A stretch of DNA of 39,686 nucleotides from a virus. Made by a program: the position numbers and the translations under genes. The notes under the pieces are model-generated. The model ran no database searches. It was not told where the DNA came from and saw only the letters and a program-made list of their open reading frames with translations. The stretch spans positions 1,323-41,008 of IMG/VR virus record IMGVR_UViG_3300030430_001380; one strand, 5' to 3'. Every line of letters begins with the position of its first letter. The stretch's first letter is position 1. Shown piece after piece: positions 2,204-21,777 of this stretch.

Positions 2204-2342
2204 TTTTTTCCTTCCGATATATCTGCTGCACTCTTTGCTTGGTGATACCAAATAGCTTTGCTACTGCCGTCATGGTCATTCGTTCTTTGTCGATCAACCG
2301 AACAATTTCTACATCACGGTCTTTTTTCGACAGACCATTCAA
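2196..2342 (-). CDS. Small helix-turn-helix protein (48 aa, TTG start)
   Basis: This short gene reads from a TTG at 2342 to TAG at 2196-2198. A strong site AAGAGGAGG lies seven bases before the TTG. The TTG overlaps the primase stop codon (TTTTGA), so coupled translation is likely, and the 3' end overlaps the helicase start. Residues 22-44 (M-T-M-T-A-V-A-K-L-F-G-I-T-K-Q-R-V-Q-Q-I-Y-R-K, positions given) match a helix-turn-helix of the sigma-70 region 4 or resolvase type: A-V-A-K-L-F, a G-I-T turn, then a basic recognition helix. It may be a DNA-binding regulator of the replication operon or a primase/helicase accessory. The product is inferred only from this motif. Confidence 0.62.
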   Translation of the reverse strand: MNGLSKKDRDVEIVRLIDKERMTMTAVAKLFGITKQRVQQIYRKEKNV

Positions 2343-3877
2343 AACGGGGCCTCCTCTTGATTAAATGATGGGGTTTTCAATTCAACGTCAGCACTCTCAA
2401 AAGCCGGTATTTTCCACACACGGACAGATCGACCTTTTATTTTTAGTACCATACTGTCTCCATTGATGTCCCGTAGCCTTTGTGCAATTTTATGCGATTT
2501 ATATTCGAAAAACTTATTCTTCTTCAGATAACTCTCAAAGTCTTTCAACCTAAAATACGTAACTTGTTCTTCTTCGTCGGTCCATGGGCGGCGGAGTAAA
2601 ATCTCTTCTTTGTCTTGCGCTTGCTGCAAGTGGCTGCAAAATTCTTCAAGGTAATCGTAAAACTGTCCGCTGATACTGGCGTCTTGTGCTACTTCAATGA
2701 TGGCGCTTTCGTTGTCACGCATCTCTGTCAACAACGTGCTAATACGACTCTCCCACTGTGCCTTCTGCACTGACCGCGGCATGAAGTTAAGTTGCTCCAT
2801 GCACGATTTTTGGAACATCGGCTGGCTCATCAAAGCTTCCGTATCTAGCTCCAGAGGCTCTCCGTTTACGTCCATAAACCATACTGGTGGGGTGCTATTG
2901 TACTTGCGTAAATTAGCGATTGTAGCGCCAGCTACGGCGGCTCCTATGCCAAATTTGCGGGTTCTGCAAAGTTCTTTGTTGCAATGTGCGCTAATCGGCG
3001 CATCTGTGCATTTGTAAGCGTAATCTTTTCGCTCAAGTTGTTTAGCGACAATGTTTACTTCGGGTAATGGTAAAGGTGGTGATAGGTATTCCATGTTGTA
3101 TACAAGAATCTCTGACTCCCAACTGTCTGGGAACGCCTTTCGCAAGTAAACACCTAGATTAAATAGTCCGTTGTTCCTGCCGCCCTCGCTAATTTTTTGT
3201 TTGCAAAGTATTTGTAAGCAAGGCGGCCCATCTCTTGCAATGATATCGTTGCTGCTTACGTCGTCTATTTGCAGCTTCAACACCTCTTCGGGTGTTTGCT
3301 TATATTTATTATAAAGTTCTATAAACTCTTCTAAATCAGCAGACGTACCGTCATCAAGAAAAGCATATCGCAATCCATTTTCATGGTCGTAATACGGAAG
3401 ATTGAGAAAGTTTCCAACATCACCACGGTCTAGGTGCAACTTTATCTGTTTTGGAAATATCTCACTTTCACCATAACCAAGGGCCGCGGACATATGTTGC
3501 AGAGACTTCTGCATGTCTTTCGCTTCAATCCATTCGGTTGTGAAAAGAAAGCAGTGCGCACCACCTGATTTGCTACGGCACACCACTAAAGGTAATTTGA
3601 GTTTTCTTATTTTGTTGACAAGTGTTTTGTGGTCAAGTGGATACTGGTCCACATCTATACAACCCCATTTACACATGTTGTCTTCATTGATTGGGATAAT
3701 ACCCAACCCGTTGCCCTTGCCGGACAAATGGTTTTCCCAAAGCTTCTTAGTTCTAGGCTCACGCGTGACACCCGCCTTACCTTGGGCTTTACCATTGGCT
3801 GCGGTTTTTTCTATTTTGAAGTAGCCATGAGCTTCCTTCAGGCCATCAAATATGGCCATAAATTTATCTACTGACAT
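2339..3877 (-). CDS. Archaeo-eukaryotic-type primase (primase-polymerase)
   Basis: The 512-residue protein has an AEP primase domain at about 1-190: G-C-I-D75-V-D77-Q-Y-P gives the metal-binding DxD, RSKSGGAHCFLF (101-112) gives the SxH-type motif, and GNFLNLPYY (155-163) is a further AEP hallmark. This arrangement resembles primases of TOTE conflict systems and phage prim-pols. A PriCT-like helical domain follows (GGRNNGLFNLGVYLRK, 232-247), then a Cys cluster (C290, C299, C304) and a C-terminal helical domain near 430-490. I start it at 3877 (MSVDKF). Longer frames to 3889 or 3910 would run into the terminator hairpin just upstream. It would make primers for the PolA nearby. No DnaG-type primase or fused DnaB-like helicase is visible. 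Confidence 0.82.
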   Translation of the reverse strand: MSVDKFMAIFDGLKEAHGYFKIEKTAANGKAQGKAGVTREPRTKKLWENHLSGKGNGLGIIPINEDNMCKWGCIDVDQYPLDHKTLVNKIRKLKLPLVVCRSKSGGAHCFLFTTEWIEAKDMQKSLQHMSAALGYGESEIFPKQIKLHLDRGDVGNFLNLPYYDHENGLRYAFLDDGTSADLEEFIELYNKYKQTPEEVLKLQIDDVSSNDIIARDGPPCLQILCKQKISEGGRNNGLFNLGVYLRKAFPDSWESEILVYNMEYLSPPLPLPEVNIVAKQLERKDYAYKCTDAPISAHCNKELCRTRKFGIGAAVAGATIANLRKYNSTPPVWFMDVNGEPLELDTEALMSQPMFQKSCMEQLNFMPRSVQKAQWESRISTLLTEMRDNESAIIEVAQDASISGQFYDYLEEFCSHLQQAQDKEEILLRRPWTDEEEQVTYFRLKDFESYLKKNKFFEYKSHKIAQRLRDINGDSMVLKIKGRSVRVWKIPAFESADVELKTPSFNQEEAPF

Positions 3878-3893
3878 GTGTGCCCCCATACGG

Positions 3894-3922
3894 AAAAATC
3901 GGCGGGGCACAAGGCCCCGCCG
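3894..3922 (-). terminator. Intrinsic terminator between SSB-like and primase genes
   Basis: A perfect 9-bp GC stem, CGGCGGGGC (3900-3908) with GCCCCGCCG (3914-3922) and a 5-base loop, is followed on the minus strand by ATTTTT (3894-3899). It starts ten bases after the SSB-like stop codon. It should lower transcription into the primase and polymerase genes relative to the two promoter-proximal genes. Confidence 0.85.
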
Positions 3923-7222: not shown

Positions 7223-7753
7223 CTAAAACGCAGCGGGTAACGACGCTATGCCTTGTTGCGGCATACCTGTCATTTGCACTTCTTGAAAAATACCGCCAAT
7301 ACCGGGAAGGGTGGGCATAATTACTCCGCCCATTGCTTTCAGTTGAGTTTCGCCTTCTGTCTCACGTGGTATTCCACCGGGTGCTCCTCTGTCGTCTCCC
7401 GTATCACCTGAACTTCCTCCAGTTGTTTCTGTTGTCGTGCCTGCTCCAAATAATCCAGCAAGCCCACCAAAACCAGACAGACCAGATGTCCCACCACTTG
7501 TTTGTCCGCTATATCCAGCAAAGCTAAAGGCAGGATTGGTCGAACCAGTGCCTCTGCCCACATAAGAAAACGGAATGGCGTCTTGCGCTAATTCAGCAGC
7601 AGCTTGACGTGCGTCAGCTTTCTTTTGCACTTGTGCAGAGAACGCATCGTATGTCTCTTGAGTGTAGTTATATTTTTCGGGGTTCTGTAAACGATCTAAT
7701 TCGTTTGAGGTGTAATAAGATGATTTCCCGCCAAATTCTCTAAAAATACTCAT
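7223..7753 (-). CDS. Glycine/threonine-rich virion-associated protein
   Basis: The 176-residue protein has a polar N-terminal helical part (NELDRLQNPEKYNYTQETYD at about 17-36), an Ala-rich helix, then a long Gly/Ser/Thr-rich low-complexity segment (about 68-135) and a hydrophobic C-terminus rich in Gly, Met and Pro. It overlaps the start of the 1263-residue gene by four bases (ATGA type) and is part of the block of internal virion genes. I recognise no family. Low complexity and position suggest a minor structural or internal component. Confidence 0.65.
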   Translation of the reverse strand: MSIFREFGGKSSYYTSNELDRLQNPEKYNYTQETYDAFSAQVQKKADARQAAAELAQDAIPFSYVGRGTGSTNPAFSFAGYSGQTSGGTSGLSGFGGLAGLFGAGTTTETTGGSSGDTGDDRGAPGGIPRETEGETQLKAMGGVIMPTLPGIGGIFQEVQMTGMPQQGIASLPAAF

Positions 7754-10700
7754 CCGGCTCTACCCATCAAACTGCCGATCCCCATAAGTTCTCGGTCTTC
7801 AGGGAATAAAGCTGCAAACCTAGCCCGATCAACCTGTCCTGAAGATATGTTTGACTGGGGTGTCGCAGTGGCAAACTGATTAGGCATAGGTGCAGCATCC
7901 GTAGCCTGAGTGGGAATATTCAAGGCTGGCGGATTCAGTGACCCCTGCTGATTAGCAGGAGGTAAACTCGGTGGCGGACTTGTGGCAGGTATCTGTTCTT
8001 GTTCAAAGTCCTCTTCTTCTATAACTGGCCTGATACCAAGAGGCAGACGTCGACCAGTCTGTCTTGCTAGAGGCTCGAATACTTTTTCTATTGCCGCAAC
8101 TGCCTTGTCGGCTTGTTTCGCGTCGTTTATTTCTTTCATCATTGCAGCAAGCAATTTTGGATTTGCAAACATTTCGGTCATGACTTTGATACGCTGGGTC
8201 TCTGGTCCGCGAAGCAATACTCGTTGCACGAGATCAGAACCTGTTTGTTCCGCAATAAGACCTCCGCTCATTTGCGGCATACCAAGAAATCTTTTTAGTT
8301 GTTGTTGTGCAAAGCCACCGGCGGTAGCACCTGCGATACGCACGTAAAACAGCTTGGCCATACTAGGGTTTTTAAACAGGACGTTTTCAAAGTCTCCTGT
8401 GGCAAAGGCTTCTTCTACGCCACGCAACGTCTTGATTGCCTTTTGTACTTCAGCCATCTCTTCTTCTGTGGCCAAACCTTTTTTGACCATAAAGTCTTTC
8501 ATTGAAAACTTATTCGATGGGTCCACACCCTCCATCTGACCGAACAATGATTTTTGCAGTGAGTCACCGTTTGGTAATCCAGCGGTGTTGTTAGCTTTTC
8601 TCAAAGCACTGTTGAAGATAGCCGACTTCAATCCGGCCATTGCTTGATCGCGGGTGTATTCGCTACCTGCATAATTAGCTTCATCAACCATTTGATAAAG
8701 TTTGTTTAGTGCTAGAGTGGGGCGCTGCGAAGCTAGGGCTTGAGTTACGGCTTTACCGGGGTCCTCAAACTCCAAAACGCTTTGGAAAGCTTTATTAGCA
8801 TATAAACGATCAATTTGTTCTTCATTGAAACCCATCTGTTTGGCACGTGATGGATTCATGGTGTTAGCTGTATCTTGGAGCATGTTGTCGAACGCTCGTT
8901 GTGCAGACACCGCGTCCGTTAAATCGACCTCTAAATCAGGCACTAAAGCAAAGAGTTCTTTTGTGCCCGGTTGATTCTTAAACGTATTGAGCTTTGTTTC
9001 GTTGACAACAAACGTTTCAATCATTTCATTTGGATTCGCTGGATTTGGTATGCGCTTTCGATCCATTACCTTACCCAGAGAATCCCGCAACGCTGCGCTC
9101 ATCAATTCATCGGCGTCCATAATCAAAGCTTCTGCTTCCGTTAGCCCACCCTCGTCAACCAAGAACCTACCGGCTGCGCGGATTTGGTCAAATCGTTTGG
9201 CCGTGCTCAAATTACCGCCTCTAAAAGCTTGATCCAACAGGTTTTGGGGGTCCAGTACGAGCCCGCGATTTCTGTCTGTTGCAGTCAAGTCACTGAGGAA
9301 ACTACGTGTAAAGACATTGTTTCGAGCAAAAGTATATGCGCGGGCCGCGTTGTAAGCTTCAGAGGCCCCGTCCGCTTGCCCTGTCAAGTCTCGTAAGAGT
9401 GCATCACTTATTTTATCTAGCCGTCCTGCGTTTACAGTGTCACCTGTTTTACGCAACTGTGCTGCTCTGTTCAAAAGACCAGAACGCATCTCAAAAAACT
9501 TTTGCGCGGTCGCTGGATTTCGGCCCCTTCCTCTTTGAAAGAAATCACGTAAATCATCTATGTCTTTTTGATAGCCCGATAAGGCGCTTTCTAAATCTCT
9601 TTGTGCGCCTTTTGATGAAAAGTTTAAGCCGCCATCCCTCGAAGACCGATCAAGCAACTGAAGAACGTTTGGCTGCTGTATTTCTTTACCGTTTCTTGCA
9701 AAAAACTGCGTCAACGGATAGCTACCGACTTCGTTCCAAAGACGTCTTTCTCTGACTTTACTCAGGTCAATTTGATTTTTAAGGACGTCATACAGTTTTT
9801 CAGACAGGTCAACTCTGTCCGAACCCGCAGCTACATCTCTGCCGACGACCTTTGAAGCAGACTCCATCAATTTGGTTACAGAAGCGTCAACACCGTCCAG
9901 AATGTTTTGTTCGAATAAGGTTTGCTGAATACGTGCAGCGTAGGCCAAGGCAAGCGGATCGCCTGTAGAAGTTAGTGCGCGGATGGCGTTAATCGCACCG
10001 GCCTGCATTTCTTCTCTGCCTCGACCAGTTGCAACTTTCAAATCTTCACTTGATTTGACTAATTCGTTTTGTATGGTTTGGAGAGTCTTTGAGAAGTCTA
10101 AACCAGCAGCATTTGCAAGATCAGCAACGGTGGGCTCAATAATTGTTTCACCATCTGCCCCTCTGCGGACTATTTCTGCTTCACTACCTAAATCCTCAAT
10201 AAACTTGGCCAGTCTTTCATCCGCAGTAATGACTCGACCATCGGCACCGACAGTTTCTGCGTACTCTTCAGACCTTTGCAAAGCTTGTAAAATTCTGTTG
10301 GCACTGTCACGCTTGAGTTTATCTGTGAGTAATCCCTCGGTTTTTTCCGCATTAGACCACCATGTTTTCATGGTTCTAATCAAAGCTCGACCTGCGTCGG
10401 GACCGGAATCTACTGCTATTTGTATCGGTATCGGTATTACAAGCGAACCAAGTAACTCGCCTCCTATACGTGCGCCCTCGTCATACGGTGCGACGTCTTG
10501 CGCAATCATTGCACCAGTTCCTGCACCGCCTGCAACTAAAGCTTCTGCCCCCAAAAATTTACCCGGATTTTCACGCGCAAAACGCATTGATCGGTCAATA
10601 CCGCCTTCAATGCCTCCTACAATACGTGTTCCTACAGGACCTTTTCTTGGGTCAAAAAAGAATCCCGCTGGGTTAAATCTACCAAGGCCTAAATTGACAC

Positions 10701-11541
10701 CGACGCCACCACCAAACATTGGTCCACTTTGCGAGGCCGCAGTTCTGGCCCGTGAGGCGCGTTCAAAAAGTTTTGTTGCAGCTTTCTCGCTCAAACCTGC
10801 ATTTTTTGCAGCAAGCTGAAAAGCTTCATCTGCAACGTCATCAAATTTACCATTGGATACTTGTTTGAAATTTTCTAAAAATTCAACAGCACCTGTTTTT
10901 GCTTTTGGTATTGAGGGCGCTAGTTTCCACGGCGCTGCCAACATAGATAAAGCAAACACACCTGTTTCGCCAAAACGTCGCTCTCCTTCCAAAGAAGGAA
11001 CGACTGGATCAGCTTCACCAATCACGGCATCTTCTATTTCACCGGCACCTATCGCGCCTAAAATCGCGCCACCGATACCGCCTACACCATAAACTATGCC
11101 TTTCAAAGCCAATCCGGGTAATCCGATAGGTGGTATGGCCGCAGCTATAGGTGTCGCGGCAGCTAATCCACCTTTGAATCCCAGACCAGCACCAATGGTT
11201 TCTGGCACGGCTCTTGCGGCACCTGAACCAGCAGCTTTCAGACCAGAGAAAGTACCTTGTTGTGGATCATATTTGCCAAAGTCCTCAACGTTAGTAAACA
11301 ACGTTAAGATTTCCTCAGAGCCTAGCTGTCGTTGCGTAGGATCAAGATTTTTGTATCGGTCTAAACGATCCAGTATGGGGTGTGTACCATCCGCCAAACT
11401 TTGTCGCGTAAGCGGTACGCCACCTGTATCGATTTCTTCATTGGCGATGCTTAGAATACCGTCAACGGTTTGGTCCAAGCCTTGCTCTTCCATCAGGCTT
11501 TCAAACTGCGGTGCGGTAAGTTGTATCAGTGCGTCTGCCAT
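7750..11541 (-). CDS. Large internal virion (ejection-type) protein, 1263 aa
   Basis: The protein is mostly helical. It has a long Gly/Ala/Ile-rich hydrophobic stretch at about 115-168 (PIAAAIPPIGLPGLALKGIV and following), a second at about 330-380, and many charged helices thereafter (for example 420-700). Size, membrane-seeking segments and position among other large late proteins resemble the ejection proteins of podoviruses (T7 gp16 or P22 gp16/gp20 as functional analogues; no sequence match claimed). No lytic transglycosylase or peptidase motif was seen. The C-terminus is Pro/Gln-rich and ends with polar, fibre-like low complexity. AGGA precedes the ATG. A role in DNA delivery is inference. 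Confidence 0.7.
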   Translation of the reverse strand: MADALIQLTAPQFESLMEEQGLDQTVDGILSIANEEIDTGGVPLTRQSLADGTHPILDRLDRYKNLDPTQRQLGSEEILTLFTNVEDFGKYDPQQGTFSGLKAAGSGAARAVPETIGAGLGFKGGLAAATPIAAAIPPIGLPGLALKGIVYGVGGIGGAILGAIGAGEIEDAVIGEADPVVPSLEGERRFGETGVFALSMLAAPWKLAPSIPKAKTGAVEFLENFKQVSNGKFDDVADEAFQLAAKNAGLSEKAATKLFERASRARTAASQSGPMFGGGVGVNLGLGRFNPAGFFFDPRKGPVGTRIVGGIEGGIDRSMRFARENPGKFLGAEALVAGGAGTGAMIAQDVAPYDEGARIGGELLGSLVIPIPIQIAVDSGPDAGRALIRTMKTWWSNAEKTEGLLTDKLKRDSANRILQALQRSEEYAETVGADGRVITADERLAKFIEDLGSEAEIVRRGADGETIIEPTVADLANAAGLDFSKTLQTIQNELVKSSEDLKVATGRGREEMQAGAINAIRALTSTGDPLALAYAARIQQTLFEQNILDGVDASVTKLMESASKVVGRDVAAGSDRVDLSEKLYDVLKNQIDLSKVRERRLWNEVGSYPLTQFFARNGKEIQQPNVLQLLDRSSRDGGLNFSSKGAQRDLESALSGYQKDIDDLRDFFQRGRGRNPATAQKFFEMRSGLLNRAAQLRKTGDTVNAGRLDKISDALLRDLTGQADGASEAYNAARAYTFARNNVFTRSFLSDLTATDRNRGLVLDPQNLLDQAFRGGNLSTAKRFDQIRAAGRFLVDEGGLTEAEALIMDADELMSAALRDSLGKVMDRKRIPNPANPNEMIETFVVNETKLNTFKNQPGTKELFALVPDLEVDLTDAVSAQRAFDNMLQDTANTMNPSRAKQMGFNEEQIDRLYANKAFQSVLEFEDPGKAVTQALASQRPTLALNKLYQMVDEANYAGSEYTRDQAMAGLKSAIFNSALRKANNTAGLPNGDSLQKSLFGQMEGVDPSNKFSMKDFMVKKGLATEEEMAEVQKAIKTLRGVEEAFATGDFENVLFKNPSMAKLFYVRIAGATAGGFAQQQLKRFLGMPQMSGGLIAEQTGSDLVQRVLLRGPETQRIKVMTEMFANPKLLAAMMKEINDAKQADKAVAAIEKVFEPLARQTGRRLPLGIRPVIEEEDFEQEQIPATSPPPSLPPANQQGSLNPPALNIPTQATDAAPMPNQFATATPQSNISSGQVDRARFAALFPEDRELMGIGSLMGRAG

Positions 11542-11552
11542 GATTATTGATC

Positions 11553-14462
11553 CTAGTTCTGTTTACGCATTCTTAGGATTTGGTCTCTAGCTGTGCTAGT
11601 GCTTTGGTCCGCATCCTCATCGACACCTGTCCTATTTTGCCTTTGCGTAAAGCCAAACCCTTCTTCGAAGGCTAAAATTTCGTTCAATAACACTTTCATC
11701 TCATTCATTGCTGCGCGGGACGCCGTGACTTGCGTGTCCTTCAATCCTGTCGCATTACCGCCATATTCGGGTAATTGTGCAGCTTTGATTTGCATACCCT
11801 GCACTAGACCATCACGTAAGGCTTTCAAAGAAGATCGGGCGTCAGAGTCTGTTTTGAGCAATATTCCGCCCGGTCTCAAATTCTGCGTTTCCTGTTCAAT
11901 AAGCTCTTGCACAAATTTCAATACTCGGTCACCCGTAATTTGTGTAGAAAACTGTAAAAGATCATTTGAGAAGGCGTCTAAAGTTTTTTGTGCCTCTGAA
12001 AAATCTTGTGCTTCTTGAGTTGGCATACCATCTGTAGCTTCTGCATAACCTTCAGAAACTATCTTCTTGAGCCCCGGATACAAACGAGACAAGCCGATTA
12101 CTTCTTTGTAATCAATGTCAGGGTTGTAACGATTCGGTCTTGTGGTTGCAAAAACACTAGATTCCAAATTGATCGTACCGTCAGCGTTCATAATGTCACT
12201 GTTTTGAGCGGTCGCGCCCATCAAATTTACAGCTTCGCCTGTTCTAGTAGCGCCTGTCCCAGCACCTGTTCCAGCGCCAACCTCCCCCTTAGATATTTGT
12301 TGAAACAGTTCTGGATTACCTTTTTGAATTGCTTGTTGCAATCTTGGTGCAAGCTGCGGAGCCGCGCCTTCTGTGTAAACGCCCAATTGTGAGTTCCAAA
12401 CTCTTTCAGGCTTGACGTAATCAAGGACAGCTTGCTCAAACGTGGTAGTTTCGTCACCCAGTGTGCCGTTAGCGTAGTCGTCCAATCTTTGCTCATTAGT
12501 TAAATAGCTAATGGTCTTGGATTTCGCATCACTGCCCAGCTTGATGCTGTTTGCAGCAAGTTCCTCAACAGCCAACATGCCCAGTTTGTAAGCTTCATCA
12601 AGCACTTGCGCACGTTCTGCGATACCAAGCGTGACATCTTTCTGATCTGCTTGACGTAACGCAAGAGCCTCATCGAAGGCACGATTGATCTTGGCAATAC
12701 CTCGGTCAATCTCTGCTTGTTCAATATCCATCTCTTTGAGTTCGATTCGCAACTGCTTTTCAAACTCGCGACCGGTAAGGGTAAGGTTTTCTTTCTGAGC
12801 CCTGTCAAGCGCATTTTCAGCGGCTGTGAAGGTGTTTTGTAAAATTCTTGCTTCTTTTTCGATTTCACCGCGGTGCGAGGCCAGAGCTTTGTTTTGCTCG
12901 AAACCTATACCCATTCTTTCAATTTCGAAGCCGTTTAGAATACCGTCACGCTCAAGTTGTCTTTCAAAGGCAAGTTTGTTGTTGGCAACAGTGTATTCGT
13001 TAGCCAACGCCATGTTTTCTTGCTCCAAGTCGTTACGAAGCTGAATATCTGCTTGACGCTGAGAACCTTGAATCGCAAGTAGTGCTTGTTCGTTAGCAAA
13101 CTGTTGTTCTCGTACAAGGTCTTGATAGGCTTGAGTGCCCAAACGCTCTTTAGTTTGAAAGTCAAATCGATCATTCTGCATGGTTCTTGCAAACGCGTTG
13201 TTAAGTTGAGCCAACTCGTTTTGTAACCTGCCACGTAGCGTAATATCTGCTTGACTTTGTGCGCCCTGCAACTCTTGGAGTAATGTCTGCGCAGCAATCT
13301 TGCGTTCAGCAAGACGCATTTGGAAACTTTGATTGGATTCGTTTTCTTCACGGTTAAACGCAAAAGTTCGATCCATTTTGAGAAGTTCATGAGCCCGATC
13401 TTCGGCCTTCTCTTGTGATTTCCAAGTTCGTTCTTTTTCTGCCGCAGCCGCATCTGCCGCTGTTTTAAGCTCAAACGATAATTGATTTTCAGCAGAGCCC
13501 AGAGCTTGCAGGTTGAGTGCACGTTTTTCACGCTTTTGCTCGTTTTTAAACTTCTGTAGATCGCCTGCACGGGCGCTAATGTTACCCAATACAGGGGTAA
13601 AGGCCTGCGCCAAACGCTCCGCAGGGCTCATTCTGGTCTCTCCGGGCGTCGCAAACATCAAAGCGCCTTGTGCTACGTCAAATAGCATTTGGGCTCTCGT
13701 CATTTGTTGTTGATCGGCAAGTTCAGCTTCTTGATCTGCCATTCCTAAGATGTCGCCATACACCGCCTGTCTATCTTGAAATATTTGTCCAAGGCGGCTT
13801 TCACCACCGTTTTCCATGTAAGCTACGGAACCGCCTTGGTTAAAATTTACAGGAGCAGGCCCTCCTTGAGCCTGATCCGGGCCGCCCATGTTGACGGTGG
13901 ACATAATCCCTTCTGCCATGGCTCCTTCAACCGGAGCCGACATTTCTTCAGCCGCCAACCCGCCGATTCCTTGATCGACCAAAGCTATTTGCATGACAGG
14001 TTGTACGAGGGTCAATACTGATTCAGGAGTTGCTTGGGCGTCTTCTTGACCTACTACTGACGCTAATTCTTGATACCTTTGTTCTATAGGGGCTTGGTCA
14101 CCTCTTATACCGTTGATGACCGTTTCGTAATCTTCTGCATTTTCCAAATCTTCCAAACCTGCGGAATACTCAGTCAACATACCTTCTAGCACCGCGGGGT
14201 CGATGCCTTGTTGCATGGCACTTTGCGCTGCTTGATTGATATCAACAGAATTCGGGTCAATTGGGGGTATACCCGGAGGCATCATCTGTGGTCCGGGTGC
14301 CGCGGGCGCTGGCATGGGTGCCATACCACCTTCTTGCATGGGTAAAACACCGCGCCCCATTAATATGTCTTTTTGTGTTACCTTGCCGTCACCGCTTAGA
14401 TCGGGAAAAGCCGCACCTCCTTTGGCAAACATCTGTCTGCTCATCACTTCTCTATTCATCAT
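11553..14462 (-). CDS. Large coiled-coil internal virion protein with EF-hand-like N-terminus, 969 aa
   Basis: Residues 21-32 (DLSGDGKVTQKD) form a canonical EF-hand/dockerin calcium loop with D21, S23, D25, K27, T29 and D32. It lies between the short motifs MFAKGG (11-16) and MQEGG (42-46). A Pro/Met/Gly-rich linker follows, then a very long charged helical region (about 300-660) with strong coiled-coil character. The motif LQGAQSQADITLR (398-410) recurs as IQGSQRQADIQLR (464-476), exactly 66 residues later. The C-terminal 300 residues are mixed. The ATG follows directly on the upstream gene (one shared base). It is probably a virion-interior or ejection component; no enzyme motif was found. 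Confidence 0.72.
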   Translation of the reverse strand: MMNREVMSRQMFAKGGAAFPDLSGDGKVTQKDILMGRGVLPMQEGGMAPMPAPAAPGPQMMPPGIPPIDPNSVDINQAAQSAMQQGIDPAVLEGMLTEYSAGLEDLENAEDYETVINGIRGDQAPIEQRYQELASVVGQEDAQATPESVLTLVQPVMQIALVDQGIGGLAAEEMSAPVEGAMAEGIMSTVNMGGPDQAQGGPAPVNFNQGGSVAYMENGGESRLGQIFQDRQAVYGDILGMADQEAELADQQQMTRAQMLFDVAQGALMFATPGETRMSPAERLAQAFTPVLGNISARAGDLQKFKNEQKREKRALNLQALGSAENQLSFELKTAADAAAAEKERTWKSQEKAEDRAHELLKMDRTFAFNREENESNQSFQMRLAERKIAAQTLLQELQGAQSQADITLRGRLQNELAQLNNAFARTMQNDRFDFQTKERLGTQAYQDLVREQQFANEQALLAIQGSQRQADIQLRNDLEQENMALANEYTVANNKLAFERQLERDGILNGFEIERMGIGFEQNKALASHRGEIEKEARILQNTFTAAENALDRAQKENLTLTGREFEKQLRIELKEMDIEQAEIDRGIAKINRAFDEALALRQADQKDVTLGIAERAQVLDEAYKLGMLAVEELAANSIKLGSDAKSKTISYLTNEQRLDDYANGTLGDETTTFEQAVLDYVKPERVWNSQLGVYTEGAAPQLAPRLQQAIQKGNPELFQQISKGEVGAGTGAGTGATRTGEAVNLMGATAQNSDIMNADGTINLESSVFATTRPNRYNPDIDYKEVIGLSRLYPGLKKIVSEGYAEATDGMPTQEAQDFSEAQKTLDAFSNDLLQFSTQITGDRVLKFVQELIEQETQNLRPGGILLKTDSDARSSLKALRDGLVQGMQIKAAQLPEYGGNATGLKDTQVTASRAAMNEMKVLLNEILAFEEGFGFTQRQNRTGVDEDADQSTSTARDQILRMRKQN

Positions 14463-17400
14463 TAAAATAACCCCGCTTGTCTAGCGCCTGCCGCTGCCGA
14501 TAGGCCAGCTACACCCAGTCCTAAGATTGATTGGGCTGGCGATACGCTACCACCAGATTGTTGTGTTATGGCCATTTGACTCGTTGGCGCACCTTTGTAA
14601 ATGTCAGACAAGAAACCTACGCGCTGGAAGGGCTCATATTGCTGCTCAACTTGCGTCCTACGTTGTGCCTCAAGCACCGCTTGATCTTGTGCTTGCTGCT
14701 GTTTACCAACATCAAACAAGAAGCCAACTTCTTTCTGACCCAACTGCTGTTGTAGTTCACCAAGAGCACCTTGACGTAGACCCAGTTGGCTGAGTCCTTC
14801 AGCCTGTGCAAGGTTGAGTTGACCAAATGAAGTGCCAAGGCCACCAAGACCCTCGCCCAATCGACCTTGTAACTCTGATCCTTGTAAACCAAGAGCACCG
14901 CCTTGCTGAGAACCCTGCATAGCCATTTGAGCTTGGTTTTGACCTAATTGACCAGATTGAGTAGCGAGTTGTCCGGCAAGTTGTTCTGCTGAAATGCCAA
15001 GTTGTGCCGCTCTGTTTGCAATGTCCGCTTGTTGATTGACACCTTGTAAAGCTAAAGCACCAGTCTGTTGATTTAGTTGTCCCGCCAATTGTGCGGCACT
15101 TAACCCCGTTTGAGAGGCTAGTTGTTGCAAATTCATGCCAGTCGTTGCCAAAGCTTGCGCATTTGCAGCAGCCATTTGCTCTGCGTTCATACCAAGCTGA
15201 CCCGCTTGCTGTAATGCAGCAAGACCCATTTGGCCACCTTGTTGAGCCGCGCTTTGGGCCATTTGAGCCCCACTCAAACCTAATTGTGCGGCTTGACCTG
15301 CCAACTGACCTTGTAGTTGTGAGGCACTCATGCCTAATTGACCCGCTAACTGTTCAGCCGATAGTTGCGTACCGGCTTGCTGCTGCGCTGTTCTGGCGGC
15401 TAATTCTTCCGCGGATAAACCTAGTTGACCTGCTTGCTGTGCTGTCTGTGCTAATAATTGTTGAGCGGAAAGACCAGTTTGTGCTTGTTGGTTTATAAGC
15501 CTGCCTGCAAGCTCCTCTGTGCTCAAACCTAATTGCGCTGCTTGACCCGCTAGTTGACCTTGCAACTGAGCAGAGGAGATGCCCAACTGTCCGGCCAACT
15601 GTTCTGCGGATTGACCTAACTGTCCTGCTTGAGCAACGTTTCTCGCGGCTAATTCTTCGGCAGACTGAGCCAACTGTCCAGCTTGTCCAAACGCGGATAA
15701 TCCTAGCTGACCACCTTGCAAAGCGCCTTGTTGCGCTAACTGTTCTGCATTCAAACCTGTTTGTGCAGCAAGTTGCTCTGCGGATAATCCTAATTGTCCT
15801 TGTTGTTGTGCGGTCCGTGCAGCCAATTCTTCTGCTGACAGTCCAAGCTGACCGGCGGCTTGTGCCGCTGACAAACCCGCTTGGGCTCCTTGGGCTCCTA
15901 AAGCTCCTGTAAGTTGCGCAGCTTGTTGTGCTCGGCCTTGTTGCGCTTCGAATGCCTGTTGCGCCCTTTGCGCCGCACTTTCAAAGCCAGCCTGCCGCAT
16001 ACCAGCCGCTGTCCTTCCTTGTTGTTCTAAAATGTTTCTTGCTAATTCTTGTTCTGCTACAGCTTGTCTTGATCCGCCAAACGCGCCTGATCCTACAGCT
16101 TGTGCTGCAACTCCCTGCTGTTGAATTTCACCAGCACGTTGGATATCAGCCAAAGCTTGTTGTACCGCAGCGTCTTCGAATTGATTTGTAAAAGCACCGA
16201 TACTTGCTGGATCAAACGCGCCTGTCGTTCCCGCTAATCCTGCAATACCTTGCTGCGCTGTTCCTGTGCCCAAAGCACCGGCTTGTTGTAACGCCCTCGC
16301 TGCATCTGAAGTAATCCCTCTTGCACCAGCGATGGCACTTTGTGTTTGTTGTGCGGCTTGTTGTGCGGCTGTTTGTCCACCTGTTCTAGCTCTACCCGCA
16401 ACGTTTCTAGCTGCTTGAGCAACATCATCAACACCGCCAATTGCTCTTTCAAACGCTCCAAGTCCACCCGCAGCCGCTTGTTGTGCTGCCGTTCGAGCCG
16501 CTTGAGAAGTAGCACCTAAATCACGTGCTGTTTGAGCAGCACCAATTCTTGCCCCCAAACCTGCGTCACCAGCCGCTTGCGCACCTGCAAGTCCTGCTGC
16601 GGCAAGGGCCTGTTGACCTGTCGCTGTTTGACCACGGGCCGTGTCGATTGCTTGTTGTGAAGCTAATCTTGCTTGCTGGGCGGCGTCTAAACCACCAATA
16701 CCTGCTTGTGTTAATCCTGTTCCAGCACCTTGGACAGCACCTCTTGCCGCTTGAATGGCTGCCGCGGTGTCTAATCCTGCTTGATCCGCCGCTGTTCTTG
16801 CTCCAAGACCAGCAGTTGTTGCAAAACCTTGTCCTAATCCAGCGGCAGTTCCTAAATCAGCCTGACCTTGTGCAGCAGCTTGTTGTCCTGCCGCAGCGGC
16901 TGCATCTAAAGCAGCTTGCGTAGCTGCCGCCGTGTCTAAAGCGCCTGTTCCAGTCGTGGCTGCTATGTTTCTTGCACGTAAATCGGCGGCCCCTAGCTGT
17001 TGCCCTAAAGTATCTACTCTTCCTGTTGCCGCTGCATCGGCTGCTGCTTGCGCAGCTAATTGATTTGCTGCCGTCGTGCCAGCCGCTACGTCACCAATAA
17101 CACCCGGTATGGTTGCGGCAACGTCTTGTAGTGCGCCTCTTCCGGATGCCGCTTGAAGTCTAGCACCAGTTGCAGCAGTATCTAATGCGCCTTGGGCCGC
17201 GCCAGTGGTTGCAGTGCCTGCGTCTATCGCACTTTGAATGCCCGCTTGTGCGGCACCAACTTGGCCCGGAATATTTGCAAGACCAGCCTGCATTGCATCG
17301 GAAGCAAGTGTTTGAAAGGGCAAAGCGCCTTGCATTGTTGCGCCAAAAGCTTGCTGCGCATCACCTAGTGTGTAACCTGCTTCTTGTAAGAAAGGTTGAA

Positions 17401-17584
17401 ATCCGCCAATACCGGCCTCTGCTAACTCTGTAGCCTTGACCTGTAGGCCAGACATCTCCGCCACCATATAGGGTGGTATAATTTGTCCTTGGTCAGCGAG
17501 AGCTTTTGCAGATTGTAAGAGACCTAGTTTATACGCCTCTATTTCCGGTGCTTCACGGACGATTTGTGTGGATTGTTCAGCCAT
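14462..17584 (-). CDS. Ala/Gln-rich repetitive helical internal virion protein, 1040 aa
   Basis: Almost the whole chain is Ala, Gln, Gly and Leu. Residues 100-560 are Ala/Gly/Gln-rich helices with few aromatic residues. Residues 579-950 tile exactly into 11-residue (QLGLSAEELAA-like) and 7-residue (RTAQQQG-like) units. The C-terminal 90 residues are non-repetitive (a segment with FLFDVG, YEPFQRVGFLSDIYKGAP and a hydrophobic Gly/Ala tail). No enzyme motif is present. It shares one base with each neighbour, so the three large genes are translated in series. A role as a long helical rod, length gauge or DNA-ejection conduit is inferred; intrinsic disorder is the alternative. Confidence 0.75.
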   Translation of the reverse strand: MAEQSTQIVREAPEIEAYKLGLLQSAKALADQGQIIPPYMVAEMSGLQVKATELAEAGIGGFQPFLQEAGYTLGDAQQAFGATMQGALPFQTLASDAMQAGLANIPGQVGAAQAGIQSAIDAGTATTGAAQGALDTAATGARLQAASGRGALQDVAATIPGVIGDVAAGTTAANQLAAQAAADAAATGRVDTLGQQLGAADLRARNIAATTGTGALDTAAATQAALDAAAAAGQQAAAQGQADLGTAAGLGQGFATTAGLGARTAADQAGLDTAAAIQAARGAVQGAGTGLTQAGIGGLDAAQQARLASQQAIDTARGQTATGQQALAAAGLAGAQAAGDAGLGARIGAAQTARDLGATSQAARTAAQQAAAGGLGAFERAIGGVDDVAQAARNVAGRARTGGQTAAQQAAQQTQSAIAGARGITSDAARALQQAGALGTGTAQQGIAGLAGTTGAFDPASIGAFTNQFEDAAVQQALADIQRAGEIQQQGVAAQAVGSGAFGGSRQAVAEQELARNILEQQGRTAAGMRQAGFESAAQRAQQAFEAQQGRAQQAAQLTGALGAQGAQAGLSAAQAAGQLGLSAEELAARTAQQQGQLGLSAEQLAAQTGLNAEQLAQQGALQGGQLGLSAFGQAGQLAQSAEELAARNVAQAGQLGQSAEQLAGQLGISSAQLQGQLAGQAAQLGLSTEELAGRLINQQAQTGLSAQQLLAQTAQQAGQLGLSAEELAARTAQQQAGTQLSAEQLAGQLGMSASQLQGQLAGQAAQLGLSGAQMAQSAAQQGGQMGLAALQQAGQLGMNAEQMAAANAQALATTGMNLQQLASQTGLSAAQLAGQLNQQTGALALQGVNQQADIANRAAQLGISAEQLAGQLATQSGQLGQNQAQMAMQGSQQGGALGLQGSELQGRLGEGLGGLGTSFGQLNLAQAEGLSQLGLRQGALGELQQQLGQKEVGFLFDVGKQQQAQDQAVLEAQRRTQVEQQYEPFQRVGFLSDIYKGAPTSQMAITQQSGGSVSPAQSILGLGVAGLSAAAGARQAGLF
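14735..15850 (-). repeat. Hendecad/heptad protein repeat array inside the 1040-aa gene
   Basis: Seventeen consecutive blocks, six of 11+11+7 residues and eleven of 11+7, cover residues 579-950 with no gap or leftover (23 elevens, 17 sevens, 372 residues). The consensus 11-mer is QLGLSAEQLAG and the consensus 7-mer is close to QTAQQQG. The DNA copies are diverged, so the pattern is kept at protein level. Confidence 0.85.
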
Positions 17585-19329
17585 TACGCCATCGCCCTCC
17601 CACGACTTTCAAGATTGCGCATGACTGTGTACATGTTCTTGATGCCGTCGTTAAGATTTCCGTTACCCAAGCCGCGAACTGCATCGGTGGTCATGACAAA
17701 CTCACCGGGCATTAACATGGCTCGGACGCTATCTTCACCCGGTACACCTTCTGTGGGAGCAATGCCGCCTGTGCGGCGCGGAAAGATTGGTCCACCCTCG
17801 GCAGCCGCTTGATATCTTTGCGTGACAAAAGGTCGTGCAAAAGGTCCGCCGGGGTTACTGGCCATCAAATAACCTGCTTGATTATTTGGTGGCGTGTTCA
17901 TTACAGGTTGAAAGACAGGGGGTAAGTAAGCCGCGTCATCTTCTTCATCTGTAGTTGTGTCTTGTCCTACAGGCTCGTATTCGCCTGTTTCTTCATTCAG
18001 CCTGATTTGTCCTAAATCTTTAACTAAAAACTTGCCCGGATCAGCATCAATCAAATCTCTGCCCGTTACAGGGGTGCCGTCCTCATTGTAATTTAAGAAA
18101 CTAGCTTGCTCTGGCTCTGGTACATCAAAGAAACCCAAACCGCTTGCAGCTACAGTTCCGAGTGCCGCGGTTGGACCAAATCGTGTCAACATACTTGGAC
18201 CAGCCGCCGCTTGGGCCGCTCTCAATCCTGCTTCTGTCGGAGTGATACCGGCAGCAGCCATTTCAGCTAAATATTTTTCTCCTGCGGCAGTTTTTGCTGC
18301 TTCAATAGCTTGTGGCGTTTGATTACCTCTAAATAAAACGTCGCCAGTTCTTTCTAAAATATTCCTACTCGCTTCCTCTGTGCCAGCCGCGGCGGCGTCT
18401 GAAAGTTGAGTGCCGGTTGTTTGCGTAGTCGTGTCTACAACAGTTTCTGCACCAGCGGCTGCATCTGGCGCACCCGCAGCGACGTCAGCCGTCGTCTCTG
18501 TTACTTGTTGTATATTAGGATCAGCCGGTGCTTTTGCTGCCGCTAATTCAGCACTTGGCGTATACGATTGGAAAAAACTGTCTCTAAATCCGCCGAGGCT
18601 GCCACTTGTTATACCTTCAGTAAAACCTGTAGCGGTTTGACTCAACCGTCCTGTGAAATTAGATGCGGCCTCCCCTATGTTGCCAGTGAAAGAACCTGTG
18701 TTACCGGTGAATCCAGCGGTTACCCCACCAACGGCACCAGAAATAAGCGCAGATTTCAACGCATCTTTAATACTGCCGCCCTGTATGAGTGTTCCAATAC
18801 CAGAGCCCAAAGCAGCACCGTAAATAGGTCCGAGAGGCGTGAACGCCAATGCAATAGGTAAAACAATCGGTGCAACTTTCTTAACAACTTTTACAACCGC
18901 TTTGACTACTTTCTTAATAGCTTTGCCGATTCCCTTGAATAGTTTTTTCAAGAAAAACTCTGGTAAACCGGTCGTTGGGTTGAGATCGTTTGATTCTGAA
19001 CCGACAACATATGCTTCTGGGTCTTCAACTCCAGCTTCCGTAAGCACGTCAAATATGCGTTGCTTCATTACCTCGTCTTCGAGGAACTGTCTTGGTATGA
19101 CTAACTCACCTTCTGCAACGTGCGCCAGCATGTTGTCTTCGTTACGGCCATATTTGGCCATACGTTCGGCAAGCGCAGGGAACTGCGCAATGCCCGTGTT
19201 TCCAAAATCTTCTGCTTTATCGCCGTAAGCCTCTTCCAATTCGTCATCTTCCATGACAAAATCAGCTATGCCACCGGCTGGAAGCTCCAATTCTTCGGTT
19301 TCTTCAGTTTTTAACGCTTCTTCAGCCAT
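17584..19329 (-). CDS. Internal virion protein with cationic amphipathic helix, 581 aa
   Basis: The N-terminus is acidic (1-45). Residues 63-79 (NEDNMLAHVAEGELVIP) match a short motif common in phage tape-measure and internal proteins, and a related copy lies at 531-553 (GEDSVRAMLMPGEFVM...). Between them, 125-151 is a Lys-rich amphipathic helix (FFLKKLFKGIGKAIKKVVKA onwards), followed by a hydrophobic stretch (152-182), a Gly/Thr-rich part and a Thr/Ala-rich low-complexity region (270-330). The layout suggests a protein that contacts membranes during DNA entry. It overlaps its neighbours by one base on each side. A tape-measure-like role is possible, but the order of the domains is unusual. 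Confidence 0.72.
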   Translation of the reverse strand: MAEEALKTEETEELELPAGGIADFVMEDDELEEAYGDKAEDFGNTGIAQFPALAERMAKYGRNEDNMLAHVAEGELVIPRQFLEDEVMKQRIFDVLTEAGVEDPEAYVVGSESNDLNPTTGLPEFFLKKLFKGIGKAIKKVVKAVVKVVKKVAPIVLPIALAFTPLGPIYGAALGSGIGTLIQGGSIKDALKSALISGAVGGVTAGFTGNTGSFTGNIGEAASNFTGRLSQTATGFTEGITSGSLGGFRDSFFQSYTPSAELAAAKAPADPNIQQVTETTADVAAGAPDAAAGAETVVDTTTQTTGTQLSDAAAAGTEEASRNILERTGDVLFRGNQTPQAIEAAKTAAGEKYLAEMAAAGITPTEAGLRAAQAAAGPSMLTRFGPTAALGTVAASGLGFFDVPEPEQASFLNYNEDGTPVTGRDLIDADPGKFLVKDLGQIRLNEETGEYEPVGQDTTTDEEDDAAYLPPVFQPVMNTPPNNQAGYLMASNPGGPFARPFVTQRYQAAAEGGPIFPRRTGGIAPTEGVPGEDSVRAMLMPGEFVMTTDAVRGLGNGNLNDGIKNMYTVMRNLESRGRAMA

Positions 19330-19562: not shown

Positions 19563-19855
19563 GATATTGTTACCGTGACGCTGCCCACGGCCCCCGTTGC
19601 TGTTGATCCCCTCGGATAAGGCTTATTCGGGACCGTGATACGTAATTCGTCACCGTGCTGAAAAATACCTCCGACCGGTAGGTTAAAGTTGTCTGTTTGT
19701 AAGTCGGGTAGTGTCAGAGCAGACGCCTGCCATGGACCCGGATTGTTGACCTGTTGGAGAAAAATAGAAAAAGCACGTACTACCTCTGCCATGTACGCTG
19801 AATCATATTCAGGTGGTGCATTCGGAAAAAGTGGTTGTACTAAGCCTCTACTCAT
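19559..19855 (-). CDS. Small tail-region structural protein with one fibre-type repeat
   Basis: The 98-residue protein begins with a helical part (YMAEVVRAFSIFLQQVNNPG at about 21-40) followed by beta-rich segments (GIFQHGDELRITVPN). The C-terminal 13 residues (ATGAVGSVTVTIS) match the repeat unit of the 297-residue fibre-like protein at 26101-26994. It lies directly upstream (in transcription) of the zinc ribbon gene and overlaps the 641-residue tail gene by four bases. It probably helps build or cap the tail; no named family is recognised. Confidence 0.7.
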   Translation of the reverse strand: MSRGLVQPLFPNAPPEYDSAYMAEVVRAFSIFLQQVNNPGPWQASALTLPDLQTDNFNLPVGGIFQHGDELRITVPNKPYPRGSTATGAVGSVTVTIS

Positions 19856-21777
19856 CTACGCCCATCCGGTCTTATATCTACTCGTGGTGTGCCTAATCGC
19901 CATTCAACACCCGTTGTATCTGATTCAATTTTGAGCGCAAATGATCTGCCTCGCATACGTAACCGAACTTGGTCTGTAAACTGTTCTATTGGTACAGTCG
20001 CGCTCCTGATAACATTACTTTGAACCGTTTGACTGTAATCTGTACCCGGAAAACGTCTTGTTTCTAGTGTGAAATCAACGTTTGGCGACGGTGACGTGGA
20101 ACCATCAAATGTTACGTCTGGTATCAACTTGCTCAAAAACACAAAATTTTCACCAGCACCAATGGACATCTGACTACTTTCGATGAAAGAACTAATCGCT
20201 GCGGGTGGATTTACGCTGCCATCGTCTGTGCCGAACTCATGGTAGTAAAGATAACCATCAGTGCTTGCTGCAATTGGATATTGGTTAACACCACGGTCTA
20301 TCCATGCTGTTCTACTTAAACTGCCGTAGTACCAAACTTTTTCGGAATAATTGTATATTACATATCTATCTACAACATTTGAGCTTGCAGACGGGTAAAA
20401 CCACCATATTTCTGAATATGCAGAGTTTACGGCTGCCGTTACTTTTTCTGCCTGATCCTGATTGAAATCATTAAAAACATACGCTTTGACAGAACACGGT
20501 AAGCTTTGAACCTGACCAGAGTAAATGTAGAACTCTTGCTCACCCATCCAAAGAACCAAATCATCAACCGCTATTGCAGCCAGAGGACTTGCAATGGTGA
20601 TGTTCTCTGAAATCATTGATATTCCAAAAGTAAAAGGTGGTCCTAAAAACTGCATGGAATGCAATGACTTATCTGTCCAGACAAGTATTTGTTGACGTGT
20701 TTCGAGGGCCGTGATGATTTCAGAACCTGTACCAATCCGTAAGTCACCGGCTGTATTTGTAGCCTGTGCAGCCCAAACTGTCGGGTTTTCTTGGTCCGAA
20801 AAGCGAATTAACAGCGGGTCTTGTGTACCAATCGCATTTTGTGCGTCACAACCAAAAACAATAACGTGCCTGTCACGGTCAGAAATCATGACCTGTTTTG
20901 CTATCGTAGGAGTTGTGGAGTCTGCTCCAGCTAGGTCTTGTAATTGAACTGCTCTAGCAAAAGGCGCGGAACTTGTAGATTTATCCCAATAATAAATACC
21001 ACCATCGCGTACATTGATTATCAAATCTTCGCCAAAATTATCATGACTCCAAATGCGAAGAATATCGCCGACCGCAGTTAGATTAGCCGCAGAGCCCCAT
21101 GTACCACGAGACCATGTACCTGCACCCCAACCTGCACCAGCTACAGAGCTATCCAAACCGCTTTGTATTTGATAAGCCCCGACTATTGATCCACCACCGT
21201 TACCTGTATCTGAGCTATTTGCTAGAACGGCAGTAGGGGTATATGCCCCATCGACGGTAATGTCGTTAAGAGAGGCAACTTCTCTTGCAACAACTTCGTA
21301 GGAGTTGTTATTGACGATACGAGATATTTGGTATTCTTGATTCAAAACAGCGGCAGTAATGTTACCGCCCAAAGACGCAGCGCCACTAAAAGTAACAAAA
21401 TCGTTTTCTAAAGCGCCGTGGTTACTATCGGTAACAGTAAGGGTAGATGATCCGTTGGTCGCGGCAAACGTTAAATCGCCAGCACTTGTTGTTTCGCGCA
21501 GAGGTGTGATGTCGTTATAGCCACCACCCTCGTTGATATAGTATTTAAGATTGGTTCCGACACCCAAGTATGACTCACCCGAAAGGGCAACAAAGGGATG
21601 CAATGCACGGCAAGTGCCTAGAAAGCTTTTGCCTGAATACTTTTCCCACCCACCAATTTTTTCTGGGGTGCCGAAACGAAACCTTATCTTGTCACAGTCA
21701 AACCATCCGCCTTCATTGGTGTATGAAGTGGTTTCTCTATTTACTCCGGGTCTAAACTGTAACTTTTGTAAGGGCAT
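19852..21777 (-). CDS. P22 gp10-like tail (packaged-DNA stabilisation/nozzle) protein
   Basis: The 641-residue protein opens with a stretch typical of marine podovirus homologues (LQFRPGVNRETTSYTNEGGW and FDCDKIRFRFGTPEKIGGW, about 6-44), then is beta-rich throughout, with repeated segments such as VDRYVIYNYSEKVWYYGS and IDRGVNQYPIAASTDGYLYY that suit a beta-propeller. In P22 this position is the tail hub gp10 that closes the DNA channel, in T7 the nozzle gp12. The family assignment is from general resemblance, not a search. It is consistent with a short-tailed virion and with the two adaptor genes further upstream in the operon. Confidence 0.72.
   Translation of the reverse strand: MPLQKLQFRPGVNRETTSYTNEGGWFDCDKIRFRFGTPEKIGGWEKYSGKSFLGTCRALHPFVALSGESYLGVGTNLKYYINEGGGYNDITPLRETTSAGDLTFAATNGSSTLTVTDSNHGALENDFVTFSGAASLGGNITAAVLNQEYQISRIVNNNSYEVVAREVASLNDITVDGAYTPTAVLANSSDTGNGGGSIVGAYQIQSGLDSSVAGAGWGAGTWSRGTWGSAANLTAVGDILRIWSHDNFGEDLIINVRDGGIYYWDKSTSSAPFARAVQLQDLAGADSTTPTIAKQVMISDRDRHVIVFGCDAQNAIGTQDPLLIRFSDQENPTVWAAQATNTAGDLRIGTGSEIITALETRQQILVWTDKSLHSMQFLGPPFTFGISMISENITIASPLAAIAVDDLVLWMGEQEFYIYSGQVQSLPCSVKAYVFNDFNQDQAEKVTAAVNSAYSEIWWFYPSASSNVVDRYVIYNYSEKVWYYGSLSRTAWIDRGVNQYPIAASTDGYLYYHEFGTDDGSVNPPAAISSFIESSQMSIGAGENFVFLSKLIPDVTFDGSTSPSPNVDFTLETRRFPGTDYSQTVQSNVIRSATVPIEQFTDQVRLRMRGRSFALKIESDTTGVEWRLGTPRVDIRPDGRR

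Follow-up and report, generated by a model that had tools for sequence, protein, structure and literature searches.

A probable phage DNA-ejection protein with length-matched arms predicted to form an antiparallel helical hairpin

The window analyzed here is a stretch of 39,686 bases that forms part of an IMG/VR virus record of 41,008 bases (IMGVR_UViG_3300030430_001380). On its minus strand, an open reading frame at positions 14462 to 17584 encodes a 1,040-amino-acid protein that very probably folds as an antiparallel helical hairpin with its turn at a GAFGGSR motif, because the lengths of the two arms covary among relatives, the insertions and deletions (indels) in the arms are mirrored, and residue couplings fall on an antidiagonal. 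The joint statement that the protein is such a hairpin and also serves in DNA ejection is likely. An earlier note on the same DNA had drawn attention to a repeat of 11- and 7-residue units in this protein; that repeat would be one arm only of a long two-armed hairpin, which the earlier reading missed.

Relatives in IMG/VR share a conserved N terminus, a central GAFGGSR, and a conserved C terminus, with two length-variable stretches in between. In the window protein (all segments on the minus strand), the conserved N-terminal base covers residues 1 to 58 (17411 to 17584), begins REAPEIEAYKLGLL, and has near-invariant positions from R10, E11, I15, E16, and K19 to G58. The N arm (residues about 60 to 498; 16091 to 17407) is rich in Ala, Gly, and Thr, varies in length, and is predicted by AlphaFold, with low confidence, to be mostly long helices; its pairing with the C arm is drawn from equality of length and mirrored indels. 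The near-invariant tip, GAFGGSR, occupies residues 500 to 506 (16067 to 16087), and the low-confidence model breaks the helix beside it, at residues 499 and 500. Alignment then delimits a conserved section of the C arm next to the tip (residues 507 to 578, QQAFEAQQ...; 15851 to 16066), followed by the main length-variable part of that arm, the tiled residues 579 to 950 (14735 to 15850). The protein closes with a conserved C-terminal base (residues 951 to 1040, FLFDVGK...FLSDIYKGAP...AGLF; 14465 to 14734), where S993, D994, I995, G998, A999, and P1000 are near invariant. In the proposed hairpin, residues about 10 to 499 would run out, the chain would turn at GAFGGSR, and residues about 507 to 990 would return antiparallel and in register; the conserved N- and C-terminal segments would meet at the base, an arrangement well supported by sequence covariation.

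Matched arms and mirrored indels about the tip

Across 94 clusters of relatives, the N half (start to GAFGGSR) and the C half (GAFGGSR to end) were related with a slope of 0.98 and an r of 0.98, and the difference C minus N lay within 5 of 41 residues in 64 clusters, compared with a mean of 6.6 and a maximum of 16 after permutation. When measured in a first set of relatives from an N-terminal anchor to GAFGGSR and from GAFGGSR to FLSDI, the two distances were 163/162, 221/220, 271/270, 390/390, and 455/455 and, in longer members, 490/491 (the window protein), 508/509, 583/585, and 644/643. The arms are thus about 490 residues long in the window and reach about 650 in relatives. Among the exceptions, L021, L173, L201, and L287 have additional residues rich in Asp, Gly, and Pro near the N terminus, ahead of the arm itself. 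Among full-length relatives, the only large exception to arm equality was L186 (N half, 374; C half, 224).

Some short relatives (L086, L143, L145, L149, L153, L158, L162, and L170) have a C-minus-N difference of about 17 to 29 rather than 41; this offset group (about 15 residues) includes pelagiphage HTVC023P and suggests a shorter C-terminal base. By tblastn and alignment, pelagiphage proteins HTVC027P gp83 (halves of 127/159) and HTVC023P gp81 (126/152) belong to the same family and conserve the tip. Unlike the window protein, they are without the 11/7 expansion and total fewer than 290 amino acids.

Each arm was then aligned outward from the tip in close relatives, and indels were recorded as distance from the tip and size. 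Between the window protein and L019, the N arm differed at (138, 36) and (196, 63) and the C arm at (139, 36) and (209, 65); between L014 and L016, the N arm differed at (90, 40) and (147, 25) and the C arm at (105, 40) and (161, 25); and between L022 and L023, the N arm differed at (110, 29) and the C arm at (111, 29). The mirror axis falls within GAFGGSR. In a larger set, 247 pairs showed a net change of 7 residues or more, and in 223 of them the net changes of the two arms agreed within 3 residues; this count is over pairs of relatives that are not independent, by which the cluster-level test is less affected. For 71 distinct one-to-one indel events, picked because the two arms agreed in the number and sign of their changes, without regard to size or position, N and C positions correlated at 0.95, with a median length difference of 1 and a median position offset of 11 residues versus about 104 for random placement; one-to-one matching failed in 142 of 251 pairs, mostly where the alignment had split one arm's change. 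Selection holds the arms equal, with a change in one met by a near-equal change at the same tip distance. Compared with the matching C-arm indels, those in the N arm often fell short by 1 to 2 residues (57/58, 63/65, and 115/116; sums, 2499/2527), as though the paths of the two helices differed slightly.

Residue couplings were examined by a mean-field analysis of 280 distinct ungapped 88-residue sequence windows around GAFGGSR (effective number, about 119). Fifteen of the 20 strongest pairs at a separation of at least 6 fell in the band i+j = -4 to 8 from the first Gly, compared with a mean of 3.1 and a maximum of 8 in column-shuffled controls, given that the band was picked after the profile was seen and that column shuffling does not keep relatedness. 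The antidiagonal lies at i+j of about +2 from G500, other antidiagonals gave no such signal, and the conserved residues 507 to 578 couple to residues N-terminal of the tip. An antiparallel hairpin that turns at GAFGGSR would give this pattern. The couplings span about 44 residues on each side, and beyond that range the mirrored indels are the basis for the pairing.

Equal arms and paired indels might instead be a by-product of mutation, such as one event duplicating both arms. Duplication of units is indeed active, in that the C-arm inserts of L019 are copies of neighboring units (DNA scores of 39 and 35 versus a shuffled maximum of 14). However, the L019 N-arm inserts did not convincingly resemble the C-arm inserts at the DNA level in either orientation (16 and 15 versus 14 to 15 when shuffled), no clear source for them was found in the gene, and the couplings independently support contact between the arms. 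We therefore hold a mutational by-product to be very improbable. One of the L019 N-arm inserts (residues 303 to 366) holds AEQLAQAGLSAEQIAA, an 11-mer of the C-arm type, hinting that units can move between arms.

Units of 11 and 7 residues in the C arm

The earlier note had proposed that residues 579 to 950 are tiled exactly by 11- and 7-residue units, and the fits confirmed this. Two-length tilings were fitted by EM, with the gain in nats over composition as the measure. Among the two-length tilings fitted, (11,7) was the best by far at 301.9 nats, followed by (14,11) at 262.7 nats with more parameters and (14,4) at 234.7 nats, while the single lengths 29, 18, 11, and 7 gave 185.6, 131.0, 47.2, and 33.5 nats, respectively. 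Residue shuffles gained 94.5 ± 5.0 (maximum, 106.8). In the DNA, copies are spaced 33, 54, and 87 nt apart, equal to 11, 18, and 29 codons. The tiling stands, but the absence of a remainder is in itself empty, since every length of at least 60 equals 11a + 7b. Likewise, the proposed 18- and 29-residue blocks do occur but not as a strict grammar: blocks of 11, 7, 25, and 40 are present too, 11-11-11 and 7-7 were found, and the residues from 927 (about the last 25 of the repeat) fit only as a run of 7s. As a candidate for the N arm, (11,7) was not the best two-length tiling there.

A model frozen on the window protein tiled the repeat regions of 10 relatives (L002, L009, L013, L014, L016, L019, L021, L027, L028, and L034; over 565 residues in L013) with no irregular piece except 9 non-repeat residues at the start. 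One 10-residue end piece each was needed in L022 and L023, and the frozen model did not fit the distant relative L035. As a check of power, artificial deletions of 1 to 3, 5, 6, and 8 to 10 residues nearly always forced an irregular piece, deletions of 4 and 7 were often tolerated, and those of 11, 18, and 29 almost never forced one. When relatives were aligned two at a time, the repeat region contained 167 gaps, of which 160 were sums of 11s and 7s, most commonly 18, 29, 36, 40, and 58, in a count where the pairs have shared ancestry and chance alone would admit about half of the lengths from 1 to 59. The earlier note had named register-breaking indels in homologues as refuting evidence; close homologues keep the 11/7 register, and units are gained and lost whole, in agreement with the earlier impression that the order of blocks looks as if they were copied entire.

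The blocks also keep helix phase, as had been proposed. Over the 372 residues, the peaks for polar residues and for Gln, Gly, and Ala individually lie at 99.5 to 99.7 degrees (3.61 residues per turn), far above shuffles, and the lengths of C-arm indels correspond to whole turns (R = 0.92; period, 3.62). For the N arm, neither the whole-turn rule for indel lengths (R = 0.38) nor length quantization was significant. The C arm consists of 11- and 7-residue alpha-helical units, and because these run near 3.61 residues per turn, whole units can be gained or lost without turning the helix face from its partner. The suggested continuous Leu/Ala stripe was not supported, since Leu, Met, Ile, Val, and Phe have no helical peak over the 372 residues; a helical wheel at 3.61 has a Gln/Ser face flanked by Leu, together with a wide Ala/Gly face.

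A C-cap Gly, an N-cap box, and a hydrophobic staple form a helix stop/start signal. Gly is at position 2 in 87% of 191 distinct 11-mers, and 43% have the full set of Gly-2, hydrophobic-3, Ser/Asn/Thr/Asp-4, Gln/Glu-7, and hydrophobic-8 (Leu is typical at 8), a recurrent pattern that looks like a helix C-cap/N-cap signature. Structure prediction had been proposed in the earlier note: with a shallow alignment, AlphaFold gave helix throughout the repeat, broken at 11-mer starts, at low confidence (mean pLDDT, 61.9), and arm pairing was not readable in the models of the window protein and the short relative L031 (pTM, 0.25 and 0.20). With moderate confidence, Gly-hydrophobic-Ser/Asn joints may segment the helices.

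These results bear on the earlier reading, taken as a model in which residues 579 to 950 make up an unbroken helix, straight or with a weak twist, that oligomerizes by a Leu/Ala stripe and is independent of the remaining chain. Its phase is coherent at 3.614 residues per turn, and the units keep it. Its continuity is doubtful given the recurrent Gly and capping motifs and the predicted breaks, there is no Leu phase, and N-arm indels mirror those of the repeat, so the segment does not vary independently. We consider such a lone helix improbable. Alternatively, short helices with tight turns (HTH-like modules of 11 or 18 residues) could stack as a solenoid, and the length match would then be one of module count. 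Gly-2 and the capping residues of the 11-mers, the AlphaFold breaks at those sites, and a weak Pfam HTH_26 match at residues 812 to 840 would suit such modules, whereas helical phase is continuous across the joints, the tip couplings fit a plain antiparallel pair over the 44 residues covered on each side, and model confidence is low; we allow the solenoid a minor share of the probability. As a DNA-binding domain, the HTH_26 match was set aside as likely convergence of the capping motif. Finally, the Gln/Ala/Gly-rich composition of the region and the low AlphaFold confidence might indicate a disordered low-complexity spacer with drifting repeat number, which we find scarcely credible against the strict register, the phase, the paired length control, and the helix predicted throughout.

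Gene neighborhood, probable role, and known systems

In reading direction on the minus strand, the gene block comprises a phage stabilization protein (virion structural, phrog_3287; 19852 to 21777), a 581-amino-acid protein with weak endolysin and tape-measure PHROG matches (17584 to 19329), the 1,040-amino-acid protein, a 969-amino-acid protein with no PHROG or Pfam family match (11553 to 14462), and a 1,263-amino-acid protein (7750 to 11541); past this last gene, a SNF2-type helicase lies on the other strand. Phage DSL-LC04 has the same gene order, with the last gene annotated as a DNA transfer protein, a name that reaches the 1,263-amino-acid protein by position only. The gene order of the block is similar to that of the ejection genes in P22 and Sf6. 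The window protein matched phrog_4287, "DNA ejection protein," weakly (E = 1e-4) and in its C-terminal part only (residues 923 to 1035), and 10 of 20 family members matched it (best, 1.5e-10). Because of the PHROG 4287 matches and the gene order, the protein is, on balance, probably an ejection (internal virion) protein of a short-tailed phage. The lengths of neighboring proteins did not covary with that of the 1,040-amino-acid protein (Spearman, 0.20 and -0.14; n = 17), and PDB sequence searches gave no convincing match. No near DNA match was found among annotated phages, and the bacterial genomes searched gave four distant matches only, all metagenome-assembled genomes; therefore, no reliable host can be assigned.

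By analogy with Sf6 gp12, a decameric channel with a flexible monomer (PMC4755594), and with phiX174 H, the hairpins may pass the tail and join a conduit. The protein would exit the virion together with the DNA or ahead of it and help build a conduit across the envelope, perhaps with several hairpins packed laterally. At a thickness of about 2 nm, a hairpin of two helices could cross a portal and tail channel without full unfolding. At 1.5 Å per residue, straight arms of 490 residues, as in the window, would measure about 74 nm, and the shortest arms, of about 120 residues, about 18 nm. Because 74 nm exceeds both an ordinary periplasm and the head typical of such genomes, a straight tube or rod in the virion is unlikely for the long versions, which favors a bend at the Gly joints or a different use of the length. 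Speculatively, the hairpins might form a helical barrel or bundle with its length set by the arms; DNA-delivery conduits would then be adjustable from about 18 nm (shortest members) to nearly 100 nm (longest members), with the 11/7 units as the quantum of length. Equally speculatively, they might form a rod that collapses at the Gly joints and extends after ejection.

Parts of this picture are already known: symmetric hairpin indels in chemoreceptors (MCP), periodic arm lengths in SMC proteins, and 11/7 units in phiX174 H. The comparison with MCP was made because chemoreceptor hairpins head the Foldseek list for the window model against the PDB, where nothing was significant (best E, 0.84) and an E of about 1 serves as a prompt only. 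MCP cytoplasmic hairpins have a conserved tip with symmetric heptad insertions and deletions (PMC5907407) and coiled-coil lengths estimated at 126 to 336 Å (PMC6628036). The ejection-protein family resembles them in its predicted antiparallel helical hairpin, conserved tip, and symmetric indels about the tip; in contrast to MCP heptad steps, it is viral, uses 11- and 7-residue units, and has arms of up to about 650 residues. No MCP signaling domain was matched by Pfam in the window protein. SMC arms function at some lengths and not at others, with a periodicity (PMC5344682, PMC8357415), yet their length steps of about 100 residues are coupled to an ATPase, whereas the ejection protein has 11/7 units, no hinge was seen, and Pfam matched no SMC/Rad50 ABC ATPase head.

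The earlier statement that no described family follows the 11/7 rule was too strong, since phiX174 H forms a decameric, Gln-lined tube of 170 Å from a helix of 11- and 7-residue units (PMC7354561). The two are alike in working, not in kinship, with 11- and 7-residue helical units, Gln richness, and a DNA-ejection role, probable in the case of the window protein; the shortest family arms (about 18 nm) would span a length like that of the H tube. Of the amide-lined oligomeric tube of H, the window protein shows a Gln/Ser wheel face only. They differ in that H has one helix per subunit, with hendecads and heptads in separate runs over about 120 residues, whereas the window protein interleaves them, and no sequence relationship between the two was detectable. 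The protein's slot among ejection genes after a gp10-type stabilization gene is similar to that of P22 gp20 and Sf6 gp12; no homology to either was detectable (hhalign probability of about 0.1%, with a shallow two-sequence profile), and neither 11/7 tiling nor matched arms are reported for them in the literature covered. For phage ejection proteins, no account of two arms varying in length together turned up in the open-access papers searched.

Podovirus ejection proteins are hard to predict and have few structures. Here, mirrored indels and couplings provide a fold-level constraint from sequence alone for a large uncharacterized marine phage family, and the analysis names the hinge and the facing residues. 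It also poses the question of why arm lengths are kept equal across a range of about 120 to 650 residues, with arms that surpass those of SMC proteins and, if straight, would exceed the head meant to hold the protein; cultured pelagiphages with short relatives make this question testable.

Two other genes in the window may be mentioned. The 969-amino-acid neighbor has a long Gln/Arg/Glu-rich, helix-like middle (residues about 270 to 620) with repeated QADI-LR--L motifs and may be another repetitive ejection protein. A primase is encoded at 2339 to 3910, also on the minus strand, with matches to the AEP-TOTE domain in Pfam (E = 8e-14) and to a PHROG of viral primases.
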